DNA of 64,000 nucleotides from Microbacterium maritypicum (GTDB lineage: Bacteria > Actinomycetota > Actinomycetes > Actinomycetales > Microbacteriaceae): the NCBI RefSeq assembly GCF_041529975.1, contig NZ_CP168030.1:3534001-3598000 (forward strand), in the 5' to 3' direction. Shown here piece by piece: positions 1 to 11,451 of the stretch. Both the position numbers and the translations under genes were made by a program. The first letter of the stretch is position 1. Each line of letters starts with the position of its first letter. Under the pieces are notes generated by a model that saw nothing but the letters and a program-made list of their open reading frames with translations, had not been told where the DNA came from and did not search any database.

Positions 1-1159
1 TGTAACGGGGGTCGAGCGAGGCGTAGGGGTTCTGGAACACCGGCTGCACACGGCGGCGCAGCGCGAACAGCTCCTTACGGCGGAGCGTGGTCAGGTCGAG
101 CCCGTCGAACAGGATCGATCCCGACGTGGCGTCCTCGAGTCCGAGCACCATGTTCGCCGTGGTCGACTTGCCCGACCCCGACTCGCCCACGATCGAGACG
201 GTCGTGCCGCGACGGATCTCGAAGCTCACCCCGTCGACCGCGGTGAACGTCTCGGGCTCGCCCGCCTTGGGAGACCGGAGGGCGAACTCCTTGCGGAGGT
301 CGCGGATCTCGACGAACGGCGTCCCGGCGGCGGCCTCGCGCTGCGGCAGGGCTTCGCGGCGGGAGGCGAGGCTCGGTGCCGCGGCGAGCAGCTGCTTCGT
401 GTACTCGTGCTGCGGGTTGCCGAGCACCTCGGCCGAGGTGCCCTCCTCCACGATGTGACCGCGGAACATCACGACGATGCGGTCGGCGCGCTCGGCAGCG
501 AGGGCGAGGTCGTGCGTGATGAGGAACACGGCGGTGCCGAGGTCATCGGTGAGCGCATCGAGCTGGTCCAGGATGCGCCGCTGCACGGTCACGTCGAGGG
601 CCGAGGTGGGCTCGTCGGCGATCAGCAGGCGCGGCTTGCAGGCGAGCCCCATCGCGATCAGCACGCGCTGGCGCATACCGCCCGAGAACTCGTGCGGGTA
701 CTGGTGCGCCCGCTGCGCGGCATCCGCGATCCCCACCATCTCGAGCAGCTCGACGACCCGCGCCTTCGTGGCATCGCCGTGGGTGTGGCCGTGCACCTCG
801 AGCGCCTCGCCGATCTGCTCGCCCACGCGCATGAGCGGGTTGAGGTTCGACATCGGGTCCTGCGGCACGAGGCCGATCCCGGCACCGCGCAGGGAGACCA
901 TCGCGTTCTCGGGCAGATCGGTCAGCTCGCGCCCGTCGAAGCGGATGCTGCCGGCCGTGATCACCCCGTTCTCGGGCAGCAGACGGTTGACCGCGGCGGC
1001 GGTGGTCGACTTGCCCGACCCGGACTCCCCGACGATCGCGACGGTCTCACCGGCGGCGACGTCGATGCTGATGTCGCTGATGGCGGTGATCAGTTCGGAA
1101 CCGGTTCGGAAGGCGACGGCGAGGCCGCTGATGCTCAGCACGGGCTCGGTGGTGCTCAT
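1..1159 (-). CDS. Dpp-type ABC importer ATPase, two fused ATP-binding halves (3' end outside window)
   Basis: Cytoplasmic ATPase expected to power the permease pair encoded upstream in the same operon. From the ATG at 1159 about 386 residues are visible before the window edge. They hold two ABC halves in tandem: Walker A GESGSGKST near residue 44 and again near residue 325, with signature SGGMRQR and Walker B LLIADEP in the first half. This is the DppD-DppF fusion layout common in actinobacteria. The start overlaps the stop of the serine hydrolase gene by ATGA, implying translational coupling. The second half is cut before its signature motif, so completeness cannot be judged. The substrate is inferred only from context (muropeptides or amino-sugar peptides). 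Confidence 0.9.
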   Translation of the reverse strand, partial: MSTTEPVLSISGLAVAFRTGSELITAISDISIDVAAGETVAIVGESGSGKSTTAAAVNRLLPENGVITAGSIRFDGRELTDLPENAMVSLRGAGIGLVPQDPMSNLNPLMRVGEQIGEALEVHGHTHGDATKARVVELLEMVGIADAAQRAHQYPHEFSGGMRQRVLIAMGLACKPRLLIADEPTSALDVTVQRRILDQLDALTDDLGTAVFLITHDLALAAERADRIVVMFRGHIVEEGTSAEVLGNPQHEYTKQLLAAAPSLASRREALPQREAAAGTPFVEIRDLRKEFALRSPKAGEPETFTAVDGVSFEIRRGTTVSIVGESGSGKSTTANMVLGLEDATSGSILFDGLDLTTLRRKELFALRRRVQPVFQNPYASLDPRY

Positions 1160-2271
1160 GGTGTTCTCGTTCCTTCGTTGTCGTCCAGGTCGTTGCCGCC
1201 CAGATCGTTGTCACCCAGGAGTGCGGGGAGCGCCGTGCGCCACAGCGCCTCGGTCGGCGCGGGTTCGGGGGCGAAGAGGCGGTTGCTCAACAGGACCGCG
1301 GCGGTGCCGGTGCCCGGCACCAATCCCAGCGCGCAGCCCGTGAAGCCCGGGTGCCAGAGCATCCGGGTCGGTCGGCCGCCGACCGCGACCATGTCGCTGC
1401 GCCAGCCCAGCGCCTGCCCGGCGTCGGGTCCGTCGCGGAACAGGTCGGCTGTCACATCCGGATGCCACAGCTCGGGATGCCGTTCGGGAGCGGCGAGCGC
1501 AGCACCCAGGGTGAGCAGCTCGTCGGCGGTGCTGAAGAGTCCGGCGTGGCCAGAGATGCCACCGGCGGCGTGGAAGCTGTTGCCGTCGTTCACGCTGCCT
1601 GTGATCTCGTCTTCGCGCCAGGCGAATGTGCGGTCGGCGGCGAGGATCGGATAGGGCTCACCGGTTGCGACCATGCGGCGTTCGGCGGCGTCACCGAGCG
1701 ACGATGAGGCGACCGGCGCAGCGAAGGGGCCGTATCCGGTACGGCTGAGCCCGAGGGGTGCGGTCACGAGCTCGCGGACGGCGGCATCCAGAGGCCGTCC
1801 GGCGATGGCGGCGATGATGCGGCCGAGCAGGAGGAATCCGAGGTCCGAGTAGTGACGGCCCTCGTCGAGGCCGTAGCGGAGCGGGATCGCGTCGGCCGCG
1901 GCCGCGGGGTCGCCGGCGTGCGCGTGATCGAGGTAGAGCGGCTGCCACTCCCACAGACCCGCGCGATGCTGCAGCAGGTGGCGCACGGTCGTTCCCGGCG
2001 CACAGGACGTGCCGGGGACGAAGCGGTCGACCGGATCGTCGAAGCCCACCTCACCACGGCTGACGAGTCGCAGGATCGCGGTCGTGGTCGCGGCGACCTT
2101 CGATACCGAGGCGATGTCGAACGCGGTCTCGGTCGTCATCGGCGTTCCGGCGAGGTCGGCCAGACCGCCCGCGGCGATGTCGCGCCCGGCATCGGTGACG
2201 ACACCCGCGACGGCGCCCCGCGGGGCGGAGTCCGTGGCGAGGACGGCCGCGACGGCGGCGGCGGCACTCAT
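1156..2271 (-). CDS. Serine hydrolase of the beta-lactamase/penicillin-binding family (YbbE-like)
   Basis: 371 residues, class C beta-lactamase fold. S-x-x-K is SVSK at residues 55-58, a YSD tripeptide stands in the Y-x-N position, and HPG sits where HxG or KTG is expected. There is no signal peptide, so it is predicted cytosolic. In Bacillus subtilis a beta-lactamase-like gene (ybbE) also sits in the murQ-murR cluster, which supports a role in muropeptide trimming rather than resistance; that role is inference. I use the ATG at 2271 because it overlaps the preceding stop as ATGA; a GTG at 2277 is the alternative. It could instead be an esterase. Confidence 0.8.
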   Translation of the reverse strand: MSAAAAVAAVLATDSAPRGAVAGVVTDAGRDIAAGGLADLAGTPMTTETAFDIASVSKVAATTTAILRLVSRGEVGFDDPVDRFVPGTSCAPGTTVRHLLQHRAGLWEWQPLYLDHAHAGDPAAAADAIPLRYGLDEGRHYSDLGFLLLGRIIAAIAGRPLDAAVRELVTAPLGLSRTGYGPFAAPVASSSLGDAAERRMVATGEPYPILAADRTFAWREDEITGSVNDGNSFHAAGGISGHAGLFSTADELLTLGAALAAPERHPELWHPDVTADLFRDGPDAGQALGWRSDMVAVGGRPTRMLWHPGFTGCALGLVPGTGTAAVLLSNRLFAPEPAPTEALWRTALPALLGDNDLGGNDLDDNEGTRTP

Positions 2272-2771
2272 GTCCACTCCCTGCGCATGCGCTGTTCGGG
2301 TTCACCGAACTCCGGCTGGGTGCGGGTGGCTCCGTCGGGGTGCCATCCCTTGGCCTCGTAGAACCCGATCGACGGCAGGTTCGCCGCGAACACCCACAGC
2401 GTCGCGGCCTCGGCCCCGGCATCCTGCAACTCCGCGGACGCCTGCGCCAGCAGCGCTCCGCCGATCCCGCCCCCGTGAGCACGAGGCGAGACGTACAGAG
2501 AGTGCACGGCGCCGTCGATGCGGCCACCCGCACCGGGGGTCGCGGCATACCGGGTGATCCCGACGATCTCGCCGTCGCGCTCGGCGACGAGCACGACGCC
2601 CACCGGATCGGCGAGCACCCGGCGCCACAGCGCCTCTGCCCGCTCATCCGTCATCGCGTCGATCGCCGCGTCGGGGAGCAGACCCCGGTAGCTCTCCCGC
2701 CAGCACGCGAGGAACACCTCGAGCACCCCGGACAGGTCGTCCGGGGTGGCGGGGCGCACCTGCAGGCTCAC
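2268..2771 (-). CDS. GNAT-family N-acetyltransferase
   Basis: 167 residues, single acetyltransferase domain. The acetyl-CoA pyrophosphate loop appears as RAHGGGIGGALL in the middle of the protein, and the C-terminal half carries the usual ANLPSIGFYEAKGW pattern. The GTG start at 2771 overlaps the anmK stop as GTGA. The open frame runs further upstream but that part lies inside anmK and has no homology-like character. A GNAT gene (ybbJ) accompanies murQ in the B. subtilis cluster as well, so the association with MurNAc metabolism is probably not accidental. The substrate is unknown; an amino sugar or a peptide amine is plausible. Confidence 0.82.
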   Translation of the reverse strand: MSLQVRPATPDDLSGVLEVFLACWRESYRGLLPDAAIDAMTDERAEALWRRVLADPVGVVLVAERDGEIVGITRYAATPGAGGRIDGAVHSLYVSPRAHGGGIGGALLAQASAELQDAGAEAATLWVFAANLPSIGFYEAKGWHPDGATRTQPEFGEPEQRMRREWT

Positions 2772-3958
2772 GATGCCGAGGCCTCCGTGAGCACGAGGGA
2801 GTCGATGGAGGCGACGGGCTCGGGCATCTGCAGCGGGCCGACGCCCGGGGTGATGGTGCCGAGGATGCGCGGCTCGCGCGCACCGGTGCCGCCGGGGACG
2901 ATCGCGGGAACGCCGTGCATCGTGGACCAGCCGATGAGCGCGAGGAGGATCGCCTCCTTGCTGTCGGCCGCGGCCCCCAGCTCGTCGGCGAGCACGACCT
3001 CGGTCGCCGGCAGAGCGGCGCGCAGTCCGTCGAGGATCAGCGGGTTGCGGCATCCGCCGCCCGACACGGCGAGGAACCCGATGCCGGCGGCCTCCACGTC
3101 GCGCGCCACAGTGCGGACCGTGAGCTCGGTCAGGGTGCGCACCACATCGGCGACGGAGATCTCCCGCCCCTGTGCGGCGAGGTGCTCGTGCACGTAGCCG
3201 AGGTGGAAATGCTCCTTGCCCGTGCTCTTGGGCGGGGTGAGGGCGTAGTACGGGTCTTCGAGCAGTGCCGCCAGCAGCGCCTCATCGACCTGTCCGGTGC
3301 GGGCGATCGCGGCGTCGTCGTCGTAGCCGAGCGGGTTGAGGCCGCGCTCCACGATGACCGCGTCGACCAGGGCGTTCGCCGGGCCGATGTCGTACGCGAC
3401 GAGGCCGTCCTGCCGCACCACGGTCATGTTCGAGATGCCGCCCAGATTCAGGGCCGCCGAGATACCGGCGCGCGAACGCAGCAGCAGCTCGTCGAGGAAC
3501 GACACCAGCGGGGCGCCGTGACCGCCGACCGTGATGTCGCGGATGCGGATGTCGGACACCACCGGGGCGCCGACCTTCTCGGCGATCCAGGCCGGCTGCC
3601 CGATCTGCAGGGTGCCCAGCGCGCGGGCGCCGTCGACCCAGTGGTAGACGGTCTGTCCATGAGAGCACACCGCGTCGACGCCGCCGACCTCGGCCGCGAT
3701 GTCGGCCGCGACCTCGGCGAACGCCTGTCCGATCAGGGTGTCGAGCTCGGCCACCTCGGCGAGCGTCGTCTGCGCGGGCGGGAGCGCCGCGATCAGTCGC
3801 GCCCGAAGTTCGGGGGCGTAGGGCACGCTCATCGCCGCGAGCACGGTGCCGTGCAGATCCACACCGTGCGCGGTGAAACCGCCGCTGGTCGTGAAATCGA
3901 CGACGGCGGCATCGATCCCGTCGTGCGAGGTGCCGGAGATCAGTCCGAGGACGCGCAT
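2768..3958 (-). CDS. anmK: Anhydro-N-acetylmuramic acid kinase
   Basis: 396 residues. AnmK hydrolyses the 1,6-anhydro bond of anhMurNAc and phosphorylates it to MurNAc-6-phosphate, the substrate of MurQ next door. The N-terminal GTSHDGIDA (residues 9-17) is the family phosphate-binding signature. GGISNMTVV and GPANALVDA in the middle are further family blocks, and a GGGCRNP motif lies near residue 300. Length matches the family. The start overlaps the murQ stop by one base (TGATG). Presence of AnmK rather than a MurNAc phosphotransferase suggests that anhydro-sugars are a real substrate of this cell. Confidence 0.95.
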   Translation of the reverse strand: MRVLGLISGTSHDGIDAAVVDFTTSGGFTAHGVDLHGTVLAAMSVPYAPELRARLIAALPPAQTTLAEVAELDTLIGQAFAEVAADIAAEVGGVDAVCSHGQTVYHWVDGARALGTLQIGQPAWIAEKVGAPVVSDIRIRDITVGGHGAPLVSFLDELLLRSRAGISAALNLGGISNMTVVRQDGLVAYDIGPANALVDAVIVERGLNPLGYDDDAAIARTGQVDEALLAALLEDPYYALTPPKSTGKEHFHLGYVHEHLAAQGREISVADVVRTLTELTVRTVARDVEAAGIGFLAVSGGGCRNPLILDGLRAALPATEVVLADELGAAADSKEAILLALIGWSTMHGVPAIVPGGTGAREPRILGTITPGVGPLQMPEPVASIDSLVLTEASAS

Positions 3959-4863
3959 CAGTTCTCCTCCAGTGCGGTGCGCAGCCGTCCGTCGGCGGCG
4001 CCCAGTCGTGCGGTGGCCGCGGCGAGGTCCTCACCGCGGCGGATCATGATCGACGCGAGCTTCACGTCGTAGGCGGCGGTCTCCAGCGCCGCCACCGCCG
4101 TGTCGCGGTCGGCATCCGCGATGGTCTGCACCATCCGGATCGCCCGCTCGCGCAGCTTGTGGTTGGTGGCCTTCACATCCACCATCAGGTTGCCGTAGGC
4201 CTTGCCGTTCCGGACCATCGAGATGGTCGAGAACATGTTGAGCACGAGCTTCTGCGCCGTACCCGACTTGAGCCGGGTCGATCCGGAGAGCACCTCGGGT
4301 CCGACCTCGACCTCGATGCCGTGCTCGGCCGCCGCGCTGAGTGCTGTGCCGACGTTGCACGACAGGCCGATGCTGAGCGCTCCGAGCTCGCGCGCCCGGC
4401 GGACGGCGGCGATCACATACGGCGTGCGTCCACTCGAGGCGATGCCGATCACGGTGTCGAGCGGGCCGATGCCGGCGGCGTCGATGGCCGCAGCCCCCGC
4501 CTCCGCGTCGTCCTCCGCGCCTTCGACGGGGTTCACGATCGCACCGGGCCCTCCGGCCATGATCGCGAACACCAGTTCGGGCGGAGTGCTGAAGGTGGGC
4601 GGGCACTCCGAGGCGTCGAGCACGCCGATACGGCCGGGGGTTCCGGCGCCGACGTAGACCAGGCGACCGCCCTGCGCCATGCGGGCGGCCGTGGCCTCGA
4701 TCGCGGGGACGATCTGTCCGAGGGCGCGCTGCACGGCAACCGGCACCGTGGCATCCGCCTCGTTCATGGTCTGCGCGAGTTCCGCCACGCTCATCAGGTC
4801 GAGCTCCGCGTAGCGGGGATCGCTGGCCTCCGTGGCGAGTCCGCCGAGGTCCTCCGTGGTCAT
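3958..4863 (-). CDS. murQ: N-acetylmuramic acid 6-phosphate etherase
   Basis: 301 residues, SIS-fold enzyme that removes D-lactate from MurNAc-6-phosphate to give GlcNAc-6-phosphate. The family signature YVGAGTPGRIGVLDASECPP runs from about residue 70, with the catalytic acid Glu86 in DASECPP. The sugar-binding block SSGRTPYV and the C-terminal LKSGTAQKLVLNM and KATNHKLRERA blocks are intact. I place the start at the ATG at 4863, which overlaps the dppC-like stop as ATGA; the longer open frame upstream lies within the permease gene. It acts downstream of AnmK in the same operon. Confidence 0.96.
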   Translation of the reverse strand: MTTEDLGGLATEASDPRYAELDLMSVAELAQTMNEADATVPVAVQRALGQIVPAIEATAARMAQGGRLVYVGAGTPGRIGVLDASECPPTFSTPPELVFAIMAGGPGAIVNPVEGAEDDAEAGAAAIDAAGIGPLDTVIGIASSGRTPYVIAAVRRARELGALSIGLSCNVGTALSAAAEHGIEVEVGPEVLSGSTRLKSGTAQKLVLNMFSTISMVRNGKAYGNLMVDVKATNHKLRERAIRMVQTIADADRDTAVAALETAAYDVKLASIMIRRGEDLAAATARLGAADGRLRTALEEN

Positions 4864-5747
4864 CGCTTTCCTCTGTTCCGGGGGTCGAGACTGTCGCGGA
4901 GGCCGTCGCCGAGCAGGTTCAGCCCGACCACGAGCAGCACCACGATCACACCGGGCGCGATCATCGTCCACGGGGCGATCGTGACGAGCGTGCGCGCCTC
5001 GAAGATCATCGAACCGAGCGAGGGTGCGGGCGGCGGGGTGCCGAGCCCGAGGAAGCTCAGCGAGGCCTCGGTGAGCACGGCCCAGGACAGCGAGAGCGTG
5101 ACCTGCACGATGATGATCGACGTGATGTTCGGCAGCACGTGTCGGAACATGGTCGCCATGCGGCTCTGACCGGTGCTCTTGGCGGCCTTGACGTATTCGA
5201 CCTCGCGCAGCGAGAGCACGGGGCCTCGGGTCACGCGGATGAAGATCGGCACGTAGACGATCGCGATGGCCACGGCGATGGTGAACCAGTTGCGCTCGAA
5301 CACCGACGCCAGCGAGAGCGCGAGCAGCAGCGGCGGGAAGGCGAACAGCACGTTCGTGACGGCCGTGATCGCGCCGTCGGAGAAGCCGCGGTAGAAGCCG
5401 GCGATGAGTCCGCACACGGTGCCGACCACGGTGGCGAAGGCGACCGCGACGACGGAGATCAGCGCCGAGTTGGCGACGCCCGCAGCGACGCGGGAGAACA
5501 CGTCGCGACCGAACTGGTCCGTCCCGAACCAGTGCACGGCCGAGGGCGGCTGCAGGCGCGACGGCGGATCCTGGGCGAGCGGGTCGAAGGGCAGCAGCCC
5601 GAACGCCGAGACGAGGCTGAGCACCGCGAGCAGCACGACGATGATGAGGCCGGTGAGCCCGCTACGGCTGCGCAGCAGGAGGCGCACGCGCTCCATGGTG
5701 CGCCCGCCGCCGGGGGCGAGGGCCGAGGTCTGAGAGATGTCGGTCAT
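4860..5747 (-). CDS. Dpp-type ABC importer permease, DppC-like
   Basis: 295 residues, inner-membrane permease with an N-terminal OppC_N-type segment (one membrane helix near residues 30-55), then the periplasmic stretch HWFGTDQFGRDVFSRV typical of DppC/OppC. The BPD_transp_1 domain has about five more helices. The coupling-helix EAA region reads EYVKAAKSTGQSRMATMFRHV-like, contacting the ATPase. It is translationally coupled on both sides (ATGA overlaps with the DppB-like gene and murQ). It belongs with the binding protein at 8329 and the ATPase at 1159. Peptide-type permeases also carry oligosaccharides and muropeptides in other species, so specificity is open. Confidence 0.92.
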   Translation of the reverse strand: MTDISQTSALAPGGGRTMERVRLLLRSRSGLTGLIIVVLLAVLSLVSAFGLLPFDPLAQDPPSRLQPPSAVHWFGTDQFGRDVFSRVAAGVANSALISVVAVAFATVVGTVCGLIAGFYRGFSDGAITAVTNVLFAFPPLLLALSLASVFERNWFTIAVAIAIVYVPIFIRVTRGPVLSLREVEYVKAAKSTGQSRMATMFRHVLPNITSIIIVQVTLSLSWAVLTEASLSFLGLGTPPPAPSLGSMIFEARTLVTIAPWTMIAPGVIVVLLVVGLNLLGDGLRDSLDPRNRGKR

Positions 5748-6715
5748 GCGGCACGCACCCGAGGATCGATGACCCGGTAGAGCAGGTCGGTGAGCAGGTT
5801 GACGATGACGAAGGCGAGTGCGATCACGAGGACGGTGCTCTGCACGAGCGCGTACTCCTTCTGCTGGATGCCGAGCAGCACCTGTCGTCCGATGCCGGGG
5901 AGCGAGAAGATCTGCTCCACCACCACGGCGCCGCCGAGGAGGTACCCGAACTGCAGGCCGGTCATCGTGACGATGGGGACCAGCGCGTTGCCGAGCACGT
6001 GCCGCACCTGCAGGCGGCGCGGCGGGACGCCCTTCGCCTTCGCGGTGCGGATGAAGTCGTTGGCGCGGATCTCGAGCACCGCGGTGCGGGTCGTGCGCAT
6101 GATCGGCGCGGCGATGCCGAACCCGAGCACGATCGACGGCAGCAGCATCTGCTGGAGGTTGAGCAGCGGGTCCTCGAAGAGCGTGGCGTAGGCCTGACCG
6201 TTGGGGTTGAAGCCGAACGACGAGGCGAGCACCGCCAGCAGTGCGGTGCCGAGCAGGAACGCGGGGATCGAGAGTCCGGCGAGACCGACCACCTGGCCGA
6301 AGCCATCGCGGACCGAGTCGGGCTTCGACGCCGAGAGCATGCCGAGCGGGATGCCGATGGCGAGGGCGATCACGATCGAGAAGATCGCGAGCTCGAACGT
6401 GACGGGGAGGGCGGCGGCGGTCAGGTCGAGCACGCTGGTCTGCGCCCGGGACGAGAAGCCGAGGTTGCCGGTGAAGATGTTGCCGAGCCACGAGAAGAAC
6501 TGCACGAAGAGCGGCTGGTCCAGGCCGTAGTAGGCCTCGAGGGCCGCGCGCTGCGAAGGCGTGAGGGCGGCTGCCTCGGTGCCGAGGCCGGAGCTGATCT
6601 GGTCGCCGGGGATGGCGCGCAGCATCAGGAAGACGAAGATGGCGACGCCGAGGAGCGTGCCGAGTGCTGCGAGGATGCGTCGCAGCACGCTGTTGCGGAG
6701 GAGCTGTCTGAACAT
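5744..6715 (-). CDS. Dpp-type ABC importer permease, DppB-like
   Basis: 323 residues. An N-terminal hydrophobic helix (about residues 13-33) is followed by the DppB motif LRAIPGDQI, an extracytoplasmic loop with YYGLDQPLFVQFFSWL, and a five-helix BPD_transp_1 core. The coupling region contains RTAKAKGVPPRRLQVRHVLGN-type residues ahead of the final helices. It ends with the usual LLYRVIDPRVR tail. It lies 66 bases downstream of the binding-protein gene and overlaps the DppC-like gene by ATGA. The partner and substrate assignment follow from the operon, not from this protein. Confidence 0.93.
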   Translation of the reverse strand: MFRQLLRNSVLRRILAALGTLLGVAIFVFLMLRAIPGDQISSGLGTEAAALTPSQRAALEAYYGLDQPLFVQFFSWLGNIFTGNLGFSSRAQTSVLDLTAAALPVTFELAIFSIVIALAIGIPLGMLSASKPDSVRDGFGQVVGLAGLSIPAFLLGTALLAVLASSFGFNPNGQAYATLFEDPLLNLQQMLLPSIVLGFGIAAPIMRTTRTAVLEIRANDFIRTAKAKGVPPRRLQVRHVLGNALVPIVTMTGLQFGYLLGGAVVVEQIFSLPGIGRQVLLGIQQKEYALVQSTVLVIALAFVIVNLLTDLLYRVIDPRVRAA

Positions 6716-6781
6716 GCGCGTGTGGGGGTGCCTGTCGTCGGGGAGGGAGGGGGCGCGGGCGTGCCGCGCCCCCTCGATCCG

Positions 6782-8329
6782 CTACTTGATGGAGGTGGTC
6801 CGCAGGTACTGCAGCGAGCCGTTCACCATGGGGACGAAGCCGTCGACGGTCGAGGCCGTCGCCGTGTAGGTGTAGCTCGTGAACAGCCAGATCCACGCGG
6901 CGTTGTCCTCGAGGTTCTCGGAGACCTGCGCGTAGATGTCCTTGCGCTTCTCCGGGTCGGCCGTCTGGCGTCCCTCGGCGAACAGCGCGTCGAGCTCGGG
7001 CGAGGAGTAGCCGGCGACCTTGTTCAGGTTTCCGGTGCTGGTGAAGTAGCGGCCGTACATGCCGTCGGGGTCGGGACGACCGCCGTTGAGCGCGACAGCG
7101 GCGTCGAAGTCGGCCGCGATCCAGCGGTCGACGAAGGCACCGGACTCGAGGACCTCGATGTCGAGCGTGATCTTCGCATCGGCGAGCTGGGCCTTGAGGT
7201 TCTGCGCCTCGTTCACCGAGGTGGCGTACTCGCCCTGCGAGACGATCGTCTTGATGGTGACGCCGTCTTCCTTGCCCGCCTTCTTGAGGTAGTCGGCGGC
7301 CTTGTCGAGGTCACGCTCGGGGCACGGACGCGCCTCGGGGTCGGACTTGTACGCCGGAGAGGTGATCGGGCCGGTGACCTCGCCCTCGCCGAGGGCGGCG
7401 GTGTCGAGCACCTCCTGGCGGTCGATCGCGCACTGGATGGCGAGGCGCACGTTGACGTCGGCGAGGTCGCCGCGCGTGGCGTTCAGCTGCAGGGCGTGGT
7501 AGCTCAGCTGCGGGGTCGTGGCGACCTCGACGTTGGCACCCTCAGCGGTCTGCGCGACCAGCGGGTCGTCGAACACCGCGAGCTGCACGTTGCCGGACTG
7601 CATCGCCGAGACGATCGACGATTCGTCGGGGATCACCCGGAATTCGACGGTGTCGAGCAGTGCGGCGTCGCCCCAGTAGTCCTCGTTCTTGGCGAGCGTG
7701 ATCGACTGGCTGGCCTTGCGGCTGTCGAGGATGAAGGGACCGGTGCCGTTCGGGGTCGTGTTGAGCGCCTCTTCGGTGTCGTCGGACGACAGCATGGCCA
7801 TGTTGATCACGGCGAGGTTGGCGGGGAGAGCGGCGTCGGGAGCGCTCAGAGTGAGGGTGACGGTCGTCTCGTCCGTGGCCTCGACCGCGGTGACGGAGGC
7901 GAGGGAGCTGCTCGCGACGGCGGCGGTGGCCTCGGCGGCGATCGCGTCGAGCGAGTACTTGACGTCTTCGGAGCCGAACGTGGTGCCGTCGGCGAAGGTG
8001 ACGCCCTCCCGCAGGTGGAAGGTCACGGTGAGGCCGTCGTCGGAGACGTCCCAGGACTCGGCGAGGCCGGGGACGACGTTGAGGTCCTCGTCGAACTCGG
8101 TCAGCGTGCCGTACAGGTTCTGCAGCACGTTGACGGCCTGGAACTGCGTGGCCTTCCAGGGGAACAGGGTGTCCGGGTCGCTGGTGACGCCGATGACGAG
8201 GTCGCCGCCCGCCGCGCCCTCAGAGGACTCGGAGTTCGATGCCGGTGCGGAACAACCGGTGATCACGAGCGCCAATGCGGCGGCCGTGGCGGTGAGAGCG
8301 CCGAATGACGCTCGCCGTGCTGTGCTCAT
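6782..8329 (-). CDS. Extracellular solute-binding lipoprotein, family 5 (DppA/OppA type)
   Basis: 515 residues. The signal sequence ends in a lipobox ITGC with Cys26 as the lipidation site, followed by a Ser/Glu-rich linker. The remainder is an SBP_bac_5 domain (FPWKATQFQAVNVLQNLYGTL start; ATAYLxxAGY-like LDKAADYLKKAG near residue 350). It is the first gene of the operon, with RBS AGGAGG nine bases before the ATG. In this context it probably captures peptidoglycan fragments (anhMurNAc-peptides, muropeptides), which no sequence feature here proves. MppA of E. coli is a precedent for an OppA relative that binds murein peptide. Confidence 0.92.
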   Translation of the reverse strand: MSTARRASFGALTATAAALALVITGCSAPASNSESSEGAAGGDLVIGVTSDPDTLFPWKATQFQAVNVLQNLYGTLTEFDEDLNVVPGLAESWDVSDDGLTVTFHLREGVTFADGTTFGSEDVKYSLDAIAAEATAAVASSSLASVTAVEATDETTVTLTLSAPDAALPANLAVINMAMLSSDDTEEALNTTPNGTGPFILDSRKASQSITLAKNEDYWGDAALLDTVEFRVIPDESSIVSAMQSGNVQLAVFDDPLVAQTAEGANVEVATTPQLSYHALQLNATRGDLADVNVRLAIQCAIDRQEVLDTAALGEGEVTGPITSPAYKSDPEARPCPERDLDKAADYLKKAGKEDGVTIKTIVSQGEYATSVNEAQNLKAQLADAKITLDIEVLESGAFVDRWIAADFDAAVALNGGRPDPDGMYGRYFTSTGNLNKVAGYSSPELDALFAEGRQTADPEKRKDIYAQVSENLEDNAAWIWLFTSYTYTATASTVDGFVPMVNGSLQYLRTTSIK

Positions 8330-8415
8330 TGCAGATTCCTCCTGGCTGGGACGCGTCGCCGTGGCGTCGGGTCAGGCGCTGTTGCCTGCCGCCCCGTGAA
8401 CGTCGTCGGTCTTGG

Positions 8416-8425
8416 TTGGTACCAA
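8416..8425. promoter_or_regulatory. Perfect 10-bp palindrome in the divergent murQ-operon/RpiR control region
   Basis: TTGGTACCAA reads identically on both strands. It lies 87 bases upstream of the binding-protein ATG and 70 bases upstream of the regulator ATG. It could be a second operator or a promoter element. No family consensus was available for comparison, so its function is inference. Confidence 0.4.
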
Positions 8426-8450
8426 AAGTACACGAAGGTCACTACAGATG

Positions 8451-8473
8451 TAACAGAAGTTCCTCTACTGTTA
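8451..8473. promoter_or_regulatory. Candidate operator of the RpiR/MurR-type regulator
   Basis: Inverted repeat TAACAG (8451-8456), 11-base spacer, CTGTTA (8468-8473). The arms match perfectly. The site ends 22 bases before the regulator start codon, so it can control the regulator directly and the divergent murQ operon by distance. SIS-domain RpiR proteins are dimeric HTH regulators, which fits two arms one turn-plus apart. Confidence 0.5.
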
Positions 8474-8495
8474 TGAACAGCGATCGGAGACCGCC

Positions 8496-9398
8496 ATGTC
8501 CAATGAAGCTGCCCGCGAAGAAGCCGGCGCACACCCCGTCCTCGTCCGCATGCGCGCGATCCGTCCCGAGCTGCGTCCGAGCGAGCAGCGCATCGCCGAC
8601 CTCTTCCTCGCCGATCCCGCGGGCACCGCGGGACTCTCGGTCGCCGAGCTCGCGCAGCGCTGCGACACCTCCACCACCTCGGTCGTGCGATTCTGCAAGC
8701 GGCTCGGCTACGAGCACGTGCGGGAGCTGCGCAACCACGTCCTGCGCGATGTGGAACGCGAGACCTTCGACACGGCAGCCCTCCCCGCCGTCTCCGGCGA
8801 CATCGACCGCAACGACACCCTGGCCGACATCGTCGCCAAGGTCTCGCTCGCCGAGACGCTCTCCCTCGCCGACACCGCGAAGGTACTCGACACCGAATCG
8901 TTGCGCGCCTCGGTGGAAGCCATCACGTCGTCGACCAGGGTCGACATCTTCGGCGTGGGCGCGAGTTCCATCGTCGGGCTCGACCTGCAGCGCAAGCTCA
9001 CCCGTATCGGTCGCACGGCGCTGGACTGGTCCGACCCGCATGCCGCCTGGACCTCGGCGGCGACCCTCGGACCGGGGAACGTCGCGATCGCGGTGTCGCA
9101 CAGCGGCGCCACCACCGACACGATCGAGTTCCTCCTGCTCGCCCGTCGGGCAGGCGCCACGACCATCGCGATCACCAACCACGCCGGGGCACCGCTGGCC
9201 GATCAGGCCGACATCGTGCTCACGACGGCCGCCCGCGAGACGGGGTTCCGCTCGGGTGCACTCGGCAGCCGGATCGCGCAGCTCATGGTGGTCGACTGCA
9301 TCTTCATCGGCGTCGCCCAGTCGAACTACGACCGCTCGATGGAGGCGCTGCGCGACACGTTCGCCGCCGTGCACCGCGTGCGGGCGGCTGGGGCGTGA
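8496..9398 (+). CDS. RpiR-family transcriptional regulator with SIS domain (MurR-like)
   Basis: 300 residues. The N-terminal HTH_6 domain (about residues 15-90) carries the RpiR block SVAELAQRCDTSTTSVVRFCKRLGY. The C-terminal SIS sugar-phosphate isomerase-fold domain (about 130-260) has GVGASSIVGLDLQRKL and SHSGATTDTIEF. MurR, the MurNAc-6-phosphate-responsive repressor of E. coli, has this architecture. Here the gene diverges from the murQ/anmK operon, so MurNAc-6-phosphate is the likely ligand (inference). RBS GGAG lies five bases before the ATG. The stop overlaps the MFS gene start as GTGA. Confidence 0.9.
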   Translation: MSNEAAREEAGAHPVLVRMRAIRPELRPSEQRIADLFLADPAGTAGLSVAELAQRCDTSTTSVVRFCKRLGYEHVRELRNHVLRDVERETFDTAALPAVSGDIDRNDTLADIVAKVSLAETLSLADTAKVLDTESLRASVEAITSSTRVDIFGVGASSIVGLDLQRKLTRIGRTALDWSDPHAAWTSAATLGPGNVAIAVSHSGATTDTIEFLLLARRAGATTIAITNHAGAPLADQADIVLTTAARETGFRSGALGSRIAQLMVVDCIFIGVAQSNYDRSMEALRDTFAAVHRVRAAGA

Positions 9399-10540
9399 CG
9401 AACGCGGGGCGCGCACGGGCGGGGCTGTTCACCGCATTCGCGGGGCTCGGTGTCACGGCGGCCTTCGTCCCGGCGATACTCCCCCGCGCCGAGGGGGCGA
9501 TCGGGGCCGACCTCAGCGCCGCCGTGCCCGCCCTGTTCGCGGGGCTGCTGGTGGGCGTGCTGGTCTCCGGTCCGCTCCTGATCCGCCGACCGCCCCAGAC
9601 CACGCTCATCCTCGGCAGCGCGCTTCAGGCTGCCGCCGTCATCGCTGTGGCGGCGGCGAGCACGCCCGGGGTGTTCATCGCCGCGGCGATCGTCGCCGGT
9701 TTCGGGTTCGGGCTGGTCGAGGCCTCGGGCTCGGTGGCGGCGAAGTCCCTGGCTGTCGGCAGCGCGACGGGACTGCTGAGCGCACTGCTGGGGACGGTCG
9801 CGGTGTGCGCTGCCGTCACGCCGCTGCTCGTCGCCCTCGGGTCGGACGTGCGCCCGGCTCTCGGCATCCTCGCGGTGGTGCCCCTCGTCACGATCGTGAT
9901 GCTCGCCGGCCCGACTCCTGCGGCCTCCCTTGCCGAAGCTCCTGCGCATCGCGACGTGCGCGGGCTCCTCGTGCTGCTGCCGTTCGCGGCGGCGCTGCCG
10001 CTCTACGTCGGCGTCGAGACCGTGCTGTCGGGCTGGTCGGCCGTGATCCCGGAGCGGATCCTCGATGTCGATCCGGCTCTCGCCGCGCTCGGAACCTCGG
10101 CGTTCTGGACCCTGATGGCCATCGGACGCTTCGGCGCGGCGGCCCTGCGTCGGGCCTCCGTCTCGCCGATCGTGATCCTCGCCACCGCGACGAGCGGAGC
10201 GGCCGTCCTGATGGCCGCGGCCGGGATGCTCGTGAGGTCCGCGCCGGTGGGCGCACTCATCGCGTTGGCCGCGGTGGTCGTGCTCCTCGCTCCCAGCTAC
10301 GGACTCATCCTGGGGCTCGCCCTCGACCGCCTCGATCCGGCTCGCAGCGCTGCCGTGACCGGTGCGCTCGTGGCCTGCGGCGCGGTCGGCGGCACGTTCG
10401 TCCCCACGTTGATCCTGCTGGTCGGCCGCGACCCGGCATCGAGCACGACGTTCTTCGTGTCTGCTGCCCTCTGTGCGCTCGTGCCGGTGCTGGTGCTGAT
10501 CGCGGCGCGATCCCGCGTCACGGCACCGACGACCGACTGA
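9395..10540 (+). CDS. MFS transporter coupled to the RpiR regulator
   Basis: 381 residues, about 12 membrane helices and almost no soluble domain. The GTG start overlaps the regulator stop (GTGA), so both are translated from one message. Recognisable MFS features are modest: a conserved glycine-rich helix 4-5 region GFGFGLVEASGSVAAK and a central loop with LAEAPAHRDVRG. I cannot name the substrate. Its position suggests export or import of an amino sugar or muropeptide breakdown product under MurR-type control. AmpG, the anhMurNAc-disaccharide permease of proteobacteria, is also an MFS protein, but I see no specific AmpG motif. Confidence 0.8.
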   Translation: MTNAGRARAGLFTAFAGLGVTAAFVPAILPRAEGAIGADLSAAVPALFAGLLVGVLVSGPLLIRRPPQTTLILGSALQAAAVIAVAAASTPGVFIAAAIVAGFGFGLVEASGSVAAKSLAVGSATGLLSALLGTVAVCAAVTPLLVALGSDVRPALGILAVVPLVTIVMLAGPTPAASLAEAPAHRDVRGLLVLLPFAAALPLYVGVETVLSGWSAVIPERILDVDPALAALGTSAFWTLMAIGRFGAAALRRASVSPIVILATATSGAAVLMAAAGMLVRSAPVGALIALAAVVVLLAPSYGLILGLALDRLDPARSAAVTGALVACGAVGGTFVPTLILLVGRDPASSTTFFVSAALCALVPVLVLIAARSRVTAPTTD

Positions 10541-10596: not shown

Positions 10597-10660
10597 CAGG
10601 TCGCCTCGGCAGATGCGGCGTAACGTCGATTCTGAACCCGCCCGCGTCAAGGGGAGCCCG

Positions 10661-10867
10661 TTGTCCACTGAAGTCCTCGCGATCATCATCAGCGCCGTCG
10701 GCGTCGTACTCACCCTCGGCACCAGCCTCTTCGCCGCCGGCGCCTGGTTGATCCGCCGCTTCGACGACCGCATCGACGCGATCGCCGCCGACGTCACCGA
10801 CCTGAAGATCTCCGTCGCGCGCCTCGAAGGCCCGCCGCGGCACCTCATCACCGCGGGAAGAGGATGA
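10661..10867 (+). CDS. Small membrane protein, hendecad family, copy 1 (no expanded repeats)
   Basis: 68 residues. One N-terminal membrane helix (about residues 5-27, VLAIIISAVGVVLTLGTSLFA type) is followed by a basic-acidic amphipathic segment RRFDDRIDAIAADVTDLK and a short tail LEGPPRHLITAGRG shared with the two downstream genes. The TTG start is chosen because GGGGAG lies five bases upstream and because the reading then aligns residue for residue with the paralogues; an ATG 26 codons upstream is the alternative. It lacks the extra DEKLS repeat units of copies 2 and 3. Function unknown. Confidence 0.7.
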   Translation: MSTEVLAIIISAVGVVLTLGTSLFAAGAWLIRRFDDRIDAIAADVTDLKISVARLEGPPRHLITAGRG

Positions 10868-10871
10868 CCCC

Positions 10872-11144
10872 GTGACCACGGAGACCCTCACCATCGTCAT
10901 CAGCGCGATCGGCATCGTGCTCACCCTCGGCGCGAGCCTTTTCGCCGCCGGCGCGTGGATGATTCGCCGCATCGACGACCGCATCGACGCCGTCGACGAG
11001 AAACTCAGCACCCGCATCGATGCGGTCGACGAGAAGCTCAGCTCTCGGATCGACGCGGTCGCCGCCGACGTCACCGACCTGAAGATCTCGGTGGCGCGCC
11101 TCGAAGGACCGCCACGGCACCTGCTCACGGCAGGGAGGGGATAA
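10872..11144 (+). CDS. Small membrane protein, hendecad family, copy 2 (two full repeats)
   Basis: 90 residues. N-terminal helix (about 7-31) followed by the 11-residue unit RIDAVDEKLST at 37-47 and RIDAVDEKLSS at 48-58, then a degenerate unit and the common tail. Spacing of hydrophobic residues (I, V, L at 2/5/9 of each unit) indicates a continuous amphipathic coiled coil on the cytoplasmic side, probably oligomerising. GTG start with AGAGG eight bases upstream. It lies four bases after copy 1 and four before copy 3, so one transcript is likely. Function unknown. Confidence 0.78.
   Translation: MTTETLTIVISAIGIVLTLGASLFAAGAWMIRRIDDRIDAVDEKLSTRIDAVDEKLSSRIDAVAADVTDLKISVARLEGPPRHLLTAGRG
10980..11078 (+). 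repeat. 33-bp coding tandem repeats in copy 2
   Basis: Three in-frame 33-base units (two well conserved, one diverged) encode the 11-residue hendecads. The unit is identical in type to the one in the next gene at 11257-11388, where there are three conserved plus one diverged. Confidence 0.8.
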
Positions 11145-11148
11145 CACC

Positions 11149-11451
11149 GTGACCACGGAGACTTGGACCATCGTCGTCAGCGCGATCGGCATCGTACTCA
11201 CCCTCGGCGCGAGCCTTTTCGCCGCCGGCGCGTGGATGATCCGCCGCATCGGCGACCGCATCGACGCCGTCGACGAGAAGCTCAGCACCCGTATCGATGC
11301 CGTCGACGAGAAGCTCAGCACCCGTATCGATGCCGTCGACGAGAAGCTCAGCTCTCGGATCGACGCGGTCGCCGCCGACGTCACCGACCTGAAGATCTCC
11401 GTCGCCCGCCTCGAAGGACCGCCGCGGCACCTGCTCACGGCGAGTCGCTGA
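11149..11451 (+). CDS. Small membrane protein, hendecad family, copy 3 (three full repeats)
   Basis: 100 residues, near-identical to copy 2 at DNA level over most of its length, which indicates a recent tandem duplication of a roughly 280-base block. The difference is one extra 33-base unit: RIDAVDEKLST twice, then RIDAVDEKLSS, then the diverged unit and tail. One membrane helix spans about residues 7-31. GTG start with GGGAGGGG upstream. The tail ends LLTASR instead of LLTAGRG. Function unknown; topology suggests a membrane-anchored coiled-coil scaffold or adaptor. Confidence 0.78.
   Translation: MTTETWTIVVSAIGIVLTLGASLFAAGAWMIRRIGDRIDAVDEKLSTRIDAVDEKLSTRIDAVDEKLSSRIDAVAADVTDLKISVARLEGPPRHLLTASR
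11257..11388 (+). repeat. 33-bp coding tandem repeats in copy 3
   Basis: Four in-frame 33-base units, three well conserved and the last diverged. Units two and three start with almost the same DNA, as expected of slippage or unequal exchange changing copy number. Confidence 0.8.

Follow-up and report, generated by a model that had tools for sequence, protein, structure and literature searches.

A 64,000-nucleotide stretch of DNA from Microbacterium maritypicum (positions 3,534,001-3,598,000 of a 3.9 Mb single-contig genome; hereafter the window) contains an operon that joins the genes of a peptide-type ATP-binding cassette (ABC) importer to those of MurQ and AnmK, two enzymes of N-acetylmuramic acid (MurNAc) metabolism. 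Judged from protein families and gene neighborhoods, the locus is read, with a probability of roughly 0.7, as an RpiR-controlled operon for the uptake and dismantling of peptidoglycan fragments that contain MurNAc or its anhydro form (anhMurNAc). An earlier sequence-only reading had proposed an ABC-based scavenging system for muropeptides or anhMurNAc-peptides, and comparative genomics supported this proposal through the linkage of the genes, a dipeptide epimerase in relatives, and a hydrolase that resembles PBP4B. The genes and the candidate operator are listed below.

6782..8329, minus strand: SBP_bac_5 substrate-binding lipoprotein (SBP), 515 amino acids (PF00496, 1.3e-86)
5744..6715, minus strand: DppB/GsiC-type permease (PF00528, PF19300)
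4860..5747, minus strand: DppC/GsiD-type permease (PF00528; codons read at the junction)
3958..4863, minus strand: MurQ, MurNAc-6-phosphate etherase (TIGR00274)
2768..3958, minus strand: AnmK, anhydro-MurNAc kinase (NF007146; PF03702, 4.9e-101)
2268..2771, minus strand: GNAT acetyltransferase, GTG start (PF00583)
1156..2277, minus strand: PBP4B/EstB-like serine hydrolase of the beta-lactamase fold (PF00144, 6.1e-47)
1..1159, minus strand: fused DppD-DppF ATPase (DppDF), running past the window edge (ABC_tran in two stretches)
8428..8453, minus strand: inverted repeat TTACAT-N14-GTGTAC, candidate RpiR operator, between operon and regulator
8496..9398, plus strand: RpiR/MurR-family regulator, divergent (HTH_6 and SIS domains)
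9395..10540, plus strand: major facilitator superfamily (MFS) protein, start at GTG 9395 (PF07690, 1.8e-8)

The families and gene calls agreed with the sequence-only reading, which had placed the genes from the lipoprotein to DppDF on one strand and an RpiR/SIS regulator divergent to them; the divergent MFS gene is an addition to it. The claim that every junction after the first overlaps by one to four bases was also borne out. The sole non-overlapping junction is a 66-base gap between the SBP gene and that of DppB. Overlaps of four bases join DppB to DppC (the DppC ATG at 5747 lies over the DppB stop), DppC to MurQ, and AnmK to GNAT, and a single base is shared by MurQ and AnmK. The hydrolase gene starts either at ATG 2271, with a four-base overlap with GNAT, or at GTG 2277, and its end at 1156 overlaps by four bases the DppDF gene that starts at 1159. 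In full, DppDF of this genome has 542 amino acids (L004:7531-9159; L numbers denote loci). These overlapping junctions suggest that the operon genes are co-translated.

Linkage was examined in two samples, namely the best 80 of at least 303 AnmK relatives among GTDB species genomes, which are biased to close kin, and 246 genomes drawn evenly from the class Actinomycetes, blind to context. The AnmK of the window is itself 95-98% identical to the AnmKs of Microbacterium oxydans, maritypicum, and paraoxydans strains. By the own standard of the sequence-only reading, a lack of normal linkage between the Dpp genes and murQ/anmK would refute it, and the comparison did not do so. In the first sample, DppC was found within 9 kb of AnmK in 61 of the 80 loci. 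These 61 operon loci included matches to SBP (58), DppB (60), DppDF (58), MurQ (55), the hydrolase (58), RpiR (51), GNAT (40), MFS (26), and the dipeptide epimerase (22). The missing SBP, DppB, and DppDF matches and two of the three missing hydrolases fall at contig ends, and one more operon is cut at a contig end (L050). In the second sample, a long AnmK match was present in 39 genomes and an SBP orthologue (E <= 1e-100) in 12. In all 12 of the latter, the SBP gene shared its contig with AnmK, at most 5.4 kb away (measured between low ends), and with MurQ, at most 10 kb away, and AnmK and MurQ lay within 10 kb of each other in 18 of the 39. The 39 long matches were counted from 63 genomes with some AnmK match and 43 above the family cut-off, the rest being short and near the threshold. 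About six SBP candidates were scored per genome and orthologues may be missed. Full gene content was viewed in nine of the 12 operon genomes (the own genome and eight others; not G041, G200, and G209). Two pairs of loci look like the same strain (L111 and L022, L115 and L056). The operon is thus absent from most sampled genomes, and where the binding protein is found, the MurNAc enzymes accompany it. Conservation of this linkage excludes chance.

Gene content was also retained where the order of genes had changed. Three loci of one family, from genomes of 1.4-2.2 Mb and with stretches of 44-51% GC, carry MurQ, SBP, DppB, DppC, two DppD/F-type ATPase matches, AnmK, GNAT, the hydrolase, and RpiR in another order, with MurQ at the opposite end of the transporter genes and GNAT in reverse orientation (L100, L101, and L102). 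The epimerase is additionally present in L100 and L101. Two loci from Chloroflexota metagenome-assembled genomes (MAGs; L078 and L079) contain the set minus the epimerase; there, the hydrolase gene lies on the opposite strand and the GNAT gene follows those of the ATPases. Because content is kept while order changes, the genes are argued to form a functional unit.

AnmK opens and phosphorylates anhMurNAc to MurNAc-6-phosphate, which MurQ splits into N-acetylglucosamine (GlcNAc)-6-phosphate and D-lactate. The MurQ of the window passes the TIGR00274 cut-off (351.7 vs. 302 bits), is 47% identical to E. coli MurQ, and retains the ASECPPT and EGAED segments. AnmK passes the NF007146 cut-off (511 vs. 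440 bits) and aligns with the solved AnmK 3qbw through the DxGP segment, which a loose pattern found in 87 of 95 AnmK sequences. The top-scoring solved sequences against AnmK were levoglucosan kinases, slightly above bacterial AnmK, as would be expected if the kinase acted on another anhydrosugar, such as levoglucosan, that the importer carries. However, AnmK exceeds the curated cut-off for anhydro-MurNAc kinases and MurQ is found near it in 55 of the 61 operons, which makes this alternative extremely improbable.

The serine hydrolase and the epimerase of relatives bear on whether peptide enters together with the sugar. The hydrolase is 28% identical to E. coli YfeW/PBP4B over 327 positions, and its residues S57, K60, Y143, H309, and G311 are invariant in 34 sequences. 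Only three of 50 orthologues have N-termini at the hydrophobicity that all 62 SBP orthologues attain (starts chosen by script), and the first helix is part of the confident fold in the predicted model; the enzyme is therefore probably cytoplasmic. The names of its homologues are generic (serine hydrolase, EstB, CubicO, and DD-carboxypeptidase among 120 listed of 695), and it is considered a candidate MurNAc-peptide amidase or peptidase.

Of the 19 closest Microbacterium operons (L007-L026 and L057 with DppC), 14 contain a probable dipeptide epimerase gene (375-399 amino acids) located between those of AnmK and the hydrolase and usually following GNAT; L007, L008, L019, L020, and L057 have no such gene. 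The operon epimerase is a protein of the enolase superfamily, and its nearest solved relatives are the B. subtilis L-Ala-D/L-Glu epimerase 1jpm (E 1.3e-67) and the dipeptide epimerase 3jva. An alignment of 10 sequences showed no variation in its KxK motif, the opposite lysine, or a DLD segment; we take KxK, the opposite lysine, and a DxD segment as marks of L-Ala-D/L-Glu epimerase. An acetyl-D-amino-acid route is also possible because GNAT adjoins. With either reaction, the substrate is likely a D-Glu-containing product, and the presence of such an epimerase in relatives therefore favors a peptide-bearing muropeptide.

Alternatively, free anhMurNAc or an anhydro-disaccharide might be imported after removal of the peptide outside the cell, which would leave side functions to the hydrolase, GNAT, and the epimerase. 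The substrates of AnmK and MurQ are sugars without peptide, and the copy of the operon in the window has no epimerase gene. On the other hand, a hydrolase mostly without a signal-like N-terminus is encoded in 58 of the 61 operons and the probable epimerase in 22 of the 61 as well as in the rearranged L100 and L101, so that peptide seems to enter as well.

The transporter proteins reached no NCBIfam model at its cut-off among the rows listed (the best 25 for DppC and DppDF). The best models in these rows, all below their cut-offs, were of the nickel, oligopeptide, glutathione, and YejF types, with YejF as the best row for DppDF, and ABC_tran was matched twice within the in-window part of DppDF. 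The name DppBCDF holds at the family level only. An architecture of the YejBEF-YepA type is present, consisting of a peptide-type binding protein, two permeases, and a fused ATPase. A lipobox-like pattern was found in 58 of 62 SBP orthologues. The predicted structure of the SBP (predicted local distance difference test score, pLDDT, of 89) has the fold of DppA, GsiB, and opine- and sialic-acid-binding proteins; such fold searches, for the SBP and the hydrolase alike, report family folds and not substrates.

Further evidence on the ligand came from an aspartate (Asp) in the D-x-x-[DE]-P segment of DppA, OppA, and MppA (D436 of the DppA precursor and D445 of the OppA precursor), which we take to hold the free N-terminus of the peptide. 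The title of PDB 8z1z gives D436 of DppA as mutated, together with one other residue. None of 36 SBP orthologues has Asp at this position, and the residue found there varies with the alignment used. In one alignment, the OppA column contained Arg in 32 of 36 sequences and Lys, Gln, Asn, and Ser once each, and the DppA column was a gap; anchoring on the following [DE]P placed Gly417 there, invariant in 36 sequences, with Arg as the next residue in 32. MppA, a binding protein for free murein tripeptide, retains the Asp when aligned with the SBP orthologues. Since the orthologues are without it, an N-terminally blocked or sugar-acid ligand is favored. The missing Asp was dropped as strong proof of ligand type, as 15 of 19 other SBP_bac_5 proteins of the own genome (a control that excludes the weak match L150) are also without it, and it lends weak support to a MurNAc-type ligand. 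YejA was likewise dropped as a second example of a missing Asp: no Asp was present there in the alignment, yet its structure paper, seen in part, reports Asp476 at the ligand.

These observations touch on two alternatives. One is a general or murein peptide importer (for free L-Ala-D-Glu-diamino acid) that is merely co-regulated with the MurNAc enzymes, the sugar entering by another way. The transporter does belong to the Dpp/Opp family, a second MurQ of the own genome lies beside an apparent sugar-type ABC importer, and B. subtilis DppBCDE binds murein tripeptide (PMC10924461, partial text). However, the SBP is without the N-terminal-binding Asp that MppA keeps. In addition, the association of the operon with AnmK and MurQ persists in different families and in rearranged loci, and there would be no need for this if only peptide were imported; this alternative is improbable. 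The other is the import of free sugar described above. The Arg beside the missing-Asp position (32 of 36) might serve as the partner of the lactyl carboxylate when free anhMurNAc binds, and proteins of the same fold bind sialic, agropinic, and mannopinic acid. Weighed with the hydrolase and epimerase, free-sugar import is unlikely.

The regulator is 32% identical to E. coli MurR, and MurQ with a divergent MurR/RpiR gene, as in the MurNAc divergon of E. coli, was found here. The pattern TTACAT-N14-ATGTAA was matched at nine or more of its 12 positions in 34 of 50 RpiR-SBP intergenic regions taken by script, whereas 100 shuffles gave a mean of 1.21 and a maximum of 5. These 34 regions included 20 from the own genome and close Microbacterium kin and 14 others; the 16 regions without a match included several of Nonomuraea. 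The test is partly circular because the pattern was derived from some of the same sequences. In the 3.9 Mb genome, TTACAT-N14-RTGTAC had one exact match, at the operon site. A wider RpiR regulon was rejected, with this exact match and a single one-mismatch site elsewhere, the surroundings of which were not inspected. By analogy with MurR, whose effector is MurNAc-6-phosphate (PMC5061867, partial text), RpiR may bind the inverted repeat and respond to the same compound.

The MFS and RpiR genes of the window share four bases. In three of four Agromyces operons and the majority of close Microbacterium ones, the MFS gene adjoins that of RpiR in the same direction; it lies inside the operon in L056 (11200-12400), L069 (6100-7300), and L070 (11800-12900). 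Searches with the protein matched no NCBIfam model, nor any solved structure at E values of up to 1, and gave no support for an AmpG-like identity. It is possibly an accessory protein, either an exporter or a second permease. A defense role was rejected, as PADLOC matched none of the four proteins submitted.

Under the favored reading of fragment uptake and dismantling, the lipoprotein would capture a wall fragment outside the membrane, and DppBC-DppDF would import it unphosphorylated. In the cytosol, the PBP4B-like hydrolase may part the sugar from the peptide or trim the peptide. AnmK would then open and phosphorylate the anhMurNAc, and MurQ would cleave the resulting MurNAc-6-phosphate into GlcNAc-6-phosphate and D-lactate. 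The RpiR regulator, sensing MurNAc-6-phosphate, would release the operon, and in most close sister strains the epimerase would render the D-Glu-containing dipeptide usable.

Several observations weigh against this reading. Among the first sample, 17 Microbacterium-type loci keep anmK at the same site without Dpp genes; the survival of a lone anmK indicates that AnmK is useful without the importer and that their coupling is not obligatory. The usual place of MurQ holds no such gene in six of the 61 operon loci. The best NCBIfam row of the hydrolase, PBP4B, lies far below its cut-off (96.6 vs. 385 bits). The L009 epimerase falls below every listed NCBIfam cut-off (150.4 vs. 343 and 159.7 vs. 500 bits), with DgcA, an N-acetyl-D-Glu racemase, outscoring the epimerase models (185.1 vs. 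400 bits). A closer epimerase to replace the one absent from the operon was not found in the own genome, where a 317-residue sister piece matches at 34% over the query and 41% over a shorter stretch. The Asp discussed above is present in only four of the 19 SBP_bac_5 paralogues. As for a source of anhydro ends, a PF06737 lytic transglycosylase was sought in the own genome and none was found, and SLT and YceG/MltG gave one weak and one clear match, respectively. Two GH3 proteins with a NagZ-like KHFPGHG motif are also encoded, and the fragments seem as likely to be scavenged from foreign walls as recycled from the own wall.

The loci with a lone anmK provided further insights into the history of the operon. 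The same flanks were observed on both sides (pyrE/ROK and YdeI/HAD, named by eye) in 15 of the 17 Dpp-less loci. No MurQ match was found nearby in 16 of them (L033 and L039 of these are cut on the left), and L016 keeps RpiR-murQ-anmK. A quick AnmK tree was built from 86 rows, leaving out seven near-copies and length outliers, with SH-aLRT support only and 28 forks open; rows were labeled as operon by any DppC match on the locus, including the distant ones of L107 and L108. It indicated at least four changes between operon and solo states, with solo rows nested among operon rows. Together with the shared flanks, this nesting makes erosion in place likelier than repeated assembly.

A more extended version of the favored reading was considered an even call: a monoderm anhydromuropeptide importer, equivalent to AmpG but of the Dpp-type ABC kind, through which sugar and peptide would enter together to be dismantled in the cytosol by enzymes of the same operon. 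Such a system would have spread through Actinomycetota to Chloroflexota, been rearranged in small low-GC actinobacterial genomes, and in Microbacterium been reduced more than once to anmK by itself.

Partial and distant versions of the arrangement were also observed. L103 (6222-10549) and L104 encode RpiR, a PBP4B-like hydrolase (30-32% identical to that of the window), MurQ, and AnmK, with no Dpp transporter match within the stretch fetched. L107 and L108, of one genus, contain MurQ and a more distant Dpp-type transporter (29-47% identity), with AnmK 4-6 kb away. In L109 (4368-8402), RpiR, a sodium:solute symporter, and AnmK lie close together, a candidate alternative arrangement for anhMurNAc uptake. 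A distant AnmK (41%) is located beside SBP_bac_1-type ABC genes and RpiR in L106 (2368-11299) and L119 (6277-12931), the former additionally with MurQ and a BadF-type kinase.

The second MurQ of the own genome is 51% identical to the first, and its gene overlaps that of a BadF/NagK-type kinase (L005:5882-16164; C1:3334001-3352000). A divergent RpiR, a double GNAT, a PIG-L deacetylase, and ABC permease genes are also present at this locus, and its ABC binding protein was recognized by eye as sugar-type. The locus is likely a separate route for reducing MurNAc or GlcNAc, and a division of labor is plausible in which anhydro fragments would enter via the Dpp-type operon and reducing MurNAc via the second locus.

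A small gene of the window (11149-11451, plus strand), flanked by the MFS and ROK kinase genes, encodes a protein with a single membrane segment and coiled-coil repeats of 11 residues (EKLSTRIDAVD), for which no family scored above the Pfam cut-off. Judging from antisense open reading frames, it is probably preceded by two copies that resemble it, in the interval from about 10600 to 11130, and similar genes adjoin anmK in L018 and L027.

Among known systems, the operon is like murR/murQP-yfeW of E. coli, where a divergent RpiR-type MurR, MurQ, a dedicated transporter, and a PBP4B-type hydrolase occur together (PMC5061867, partial text). In the gene table, MurR, MurQ, and YfeW of E. coli form one divergon with MurP, a transporter of the phosphotransferase system (PTS) that is annotated also for anhMurNAc. 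The E. coli divergon thus relies on a phosphorylating PTS and includes no AnmK, whereas an ABC importer and AnmK, often with GNAT and an epimerase, are found here. Since an ABC importer would deliver the sugar unphosphorylated, a kinase is needed where E. coli uses the PTS, and the kinase of the operon is AnmK. PTS MurP was not found in the operon of the window, the rest of the genome not having been searched for it. The hydrolase also differs from that of murQP-yfeW in being mostly without a signal-like N-terminus.

The importer is like YejBEF-YepA of Agrobacterium, a peptide-type ABC importer with a special binding protein, YepA, which presumably belongs to SBP family 5. YejBEF-YepA imports muropeptides in place of AmpG (PMC9790009, partial text), and YejF contains two ATPase domains in one chain (PMC10924461, partial text). 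In this Gram-negative species, yejABEF, yepA, nagZ, and ampD have distant locus numbers (PMC9790009, partial text). Unlike in Agrobacterium, importer and enzymes form one operon here, in Actinomycetota and two Chloroflexota MAGs.

Parts of the arrangement are also known from peptide and amidase loci. AmiE of B. subtilis has the beta-lactamase fold, and the dppABCDE-ykfABCD operon of this species combines a Dpp-type importer with an L-Ala-D/L-Glu epimerase for murein peptide. Similarly, ycjG-mpaA-mppA of E. coli (gene table) combines a binding protein with such an epimerase, as in the operon of relatives. Both serve free murein peptide, however, and the E. coli stretch viewed is without AnmK or MurQ. 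In murQRP-amiE-nagZ-ybbC of B. subtilis, MurQ, an RpiR-type regulator, and a MurNAc-L-alanine amidase gene are clustered in a way that resembles the present operon; NagZ and AmiE degrade muropeptides outside the cell and MurNAc enters by PTS (PMC5061867, partial text), whereas the hydrolase of the present operon looks cytoplasmic.

The sequence-only reading knew of no well-described actinobacterial system of this form, and literature searches, with subscription papers mostly outside their reach, likewise gave no description of the operon. In partial texts, Streptomyces coelicolor is reported to recycle MurNAc by MurQ with the MurP orthologue missing (PMC5061867), an unknown MurNAc transporter is speculated on by the authors for mycobacteria (PMC13041923), murQ and anmK are named among the genes of a Pseudarthrobacter strain (PMC12025171), and 1,6-anhydromuropeptides are described as targets of efficient recycling in diderm bacteria (PMC11382707). 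The operon is a concrete candidate for an actinobacterial importer of cell-wall sugar, complete with kinase, etherase, hydrolase, and regulator. As it can be deleted or expressed as a unit, the question of the importer is directly testable. If the reading is true, anhydro ends, studied mainly in Gram-negative species, are taken up by monoderm bacteria, which use wall debris as a nutrient under regulation. Compared with the systems above, the operon would join the logic of murR-murQP-yfeW with a YejBEF-like importer, AnmK replacing the phosphorylation step of the PTS.

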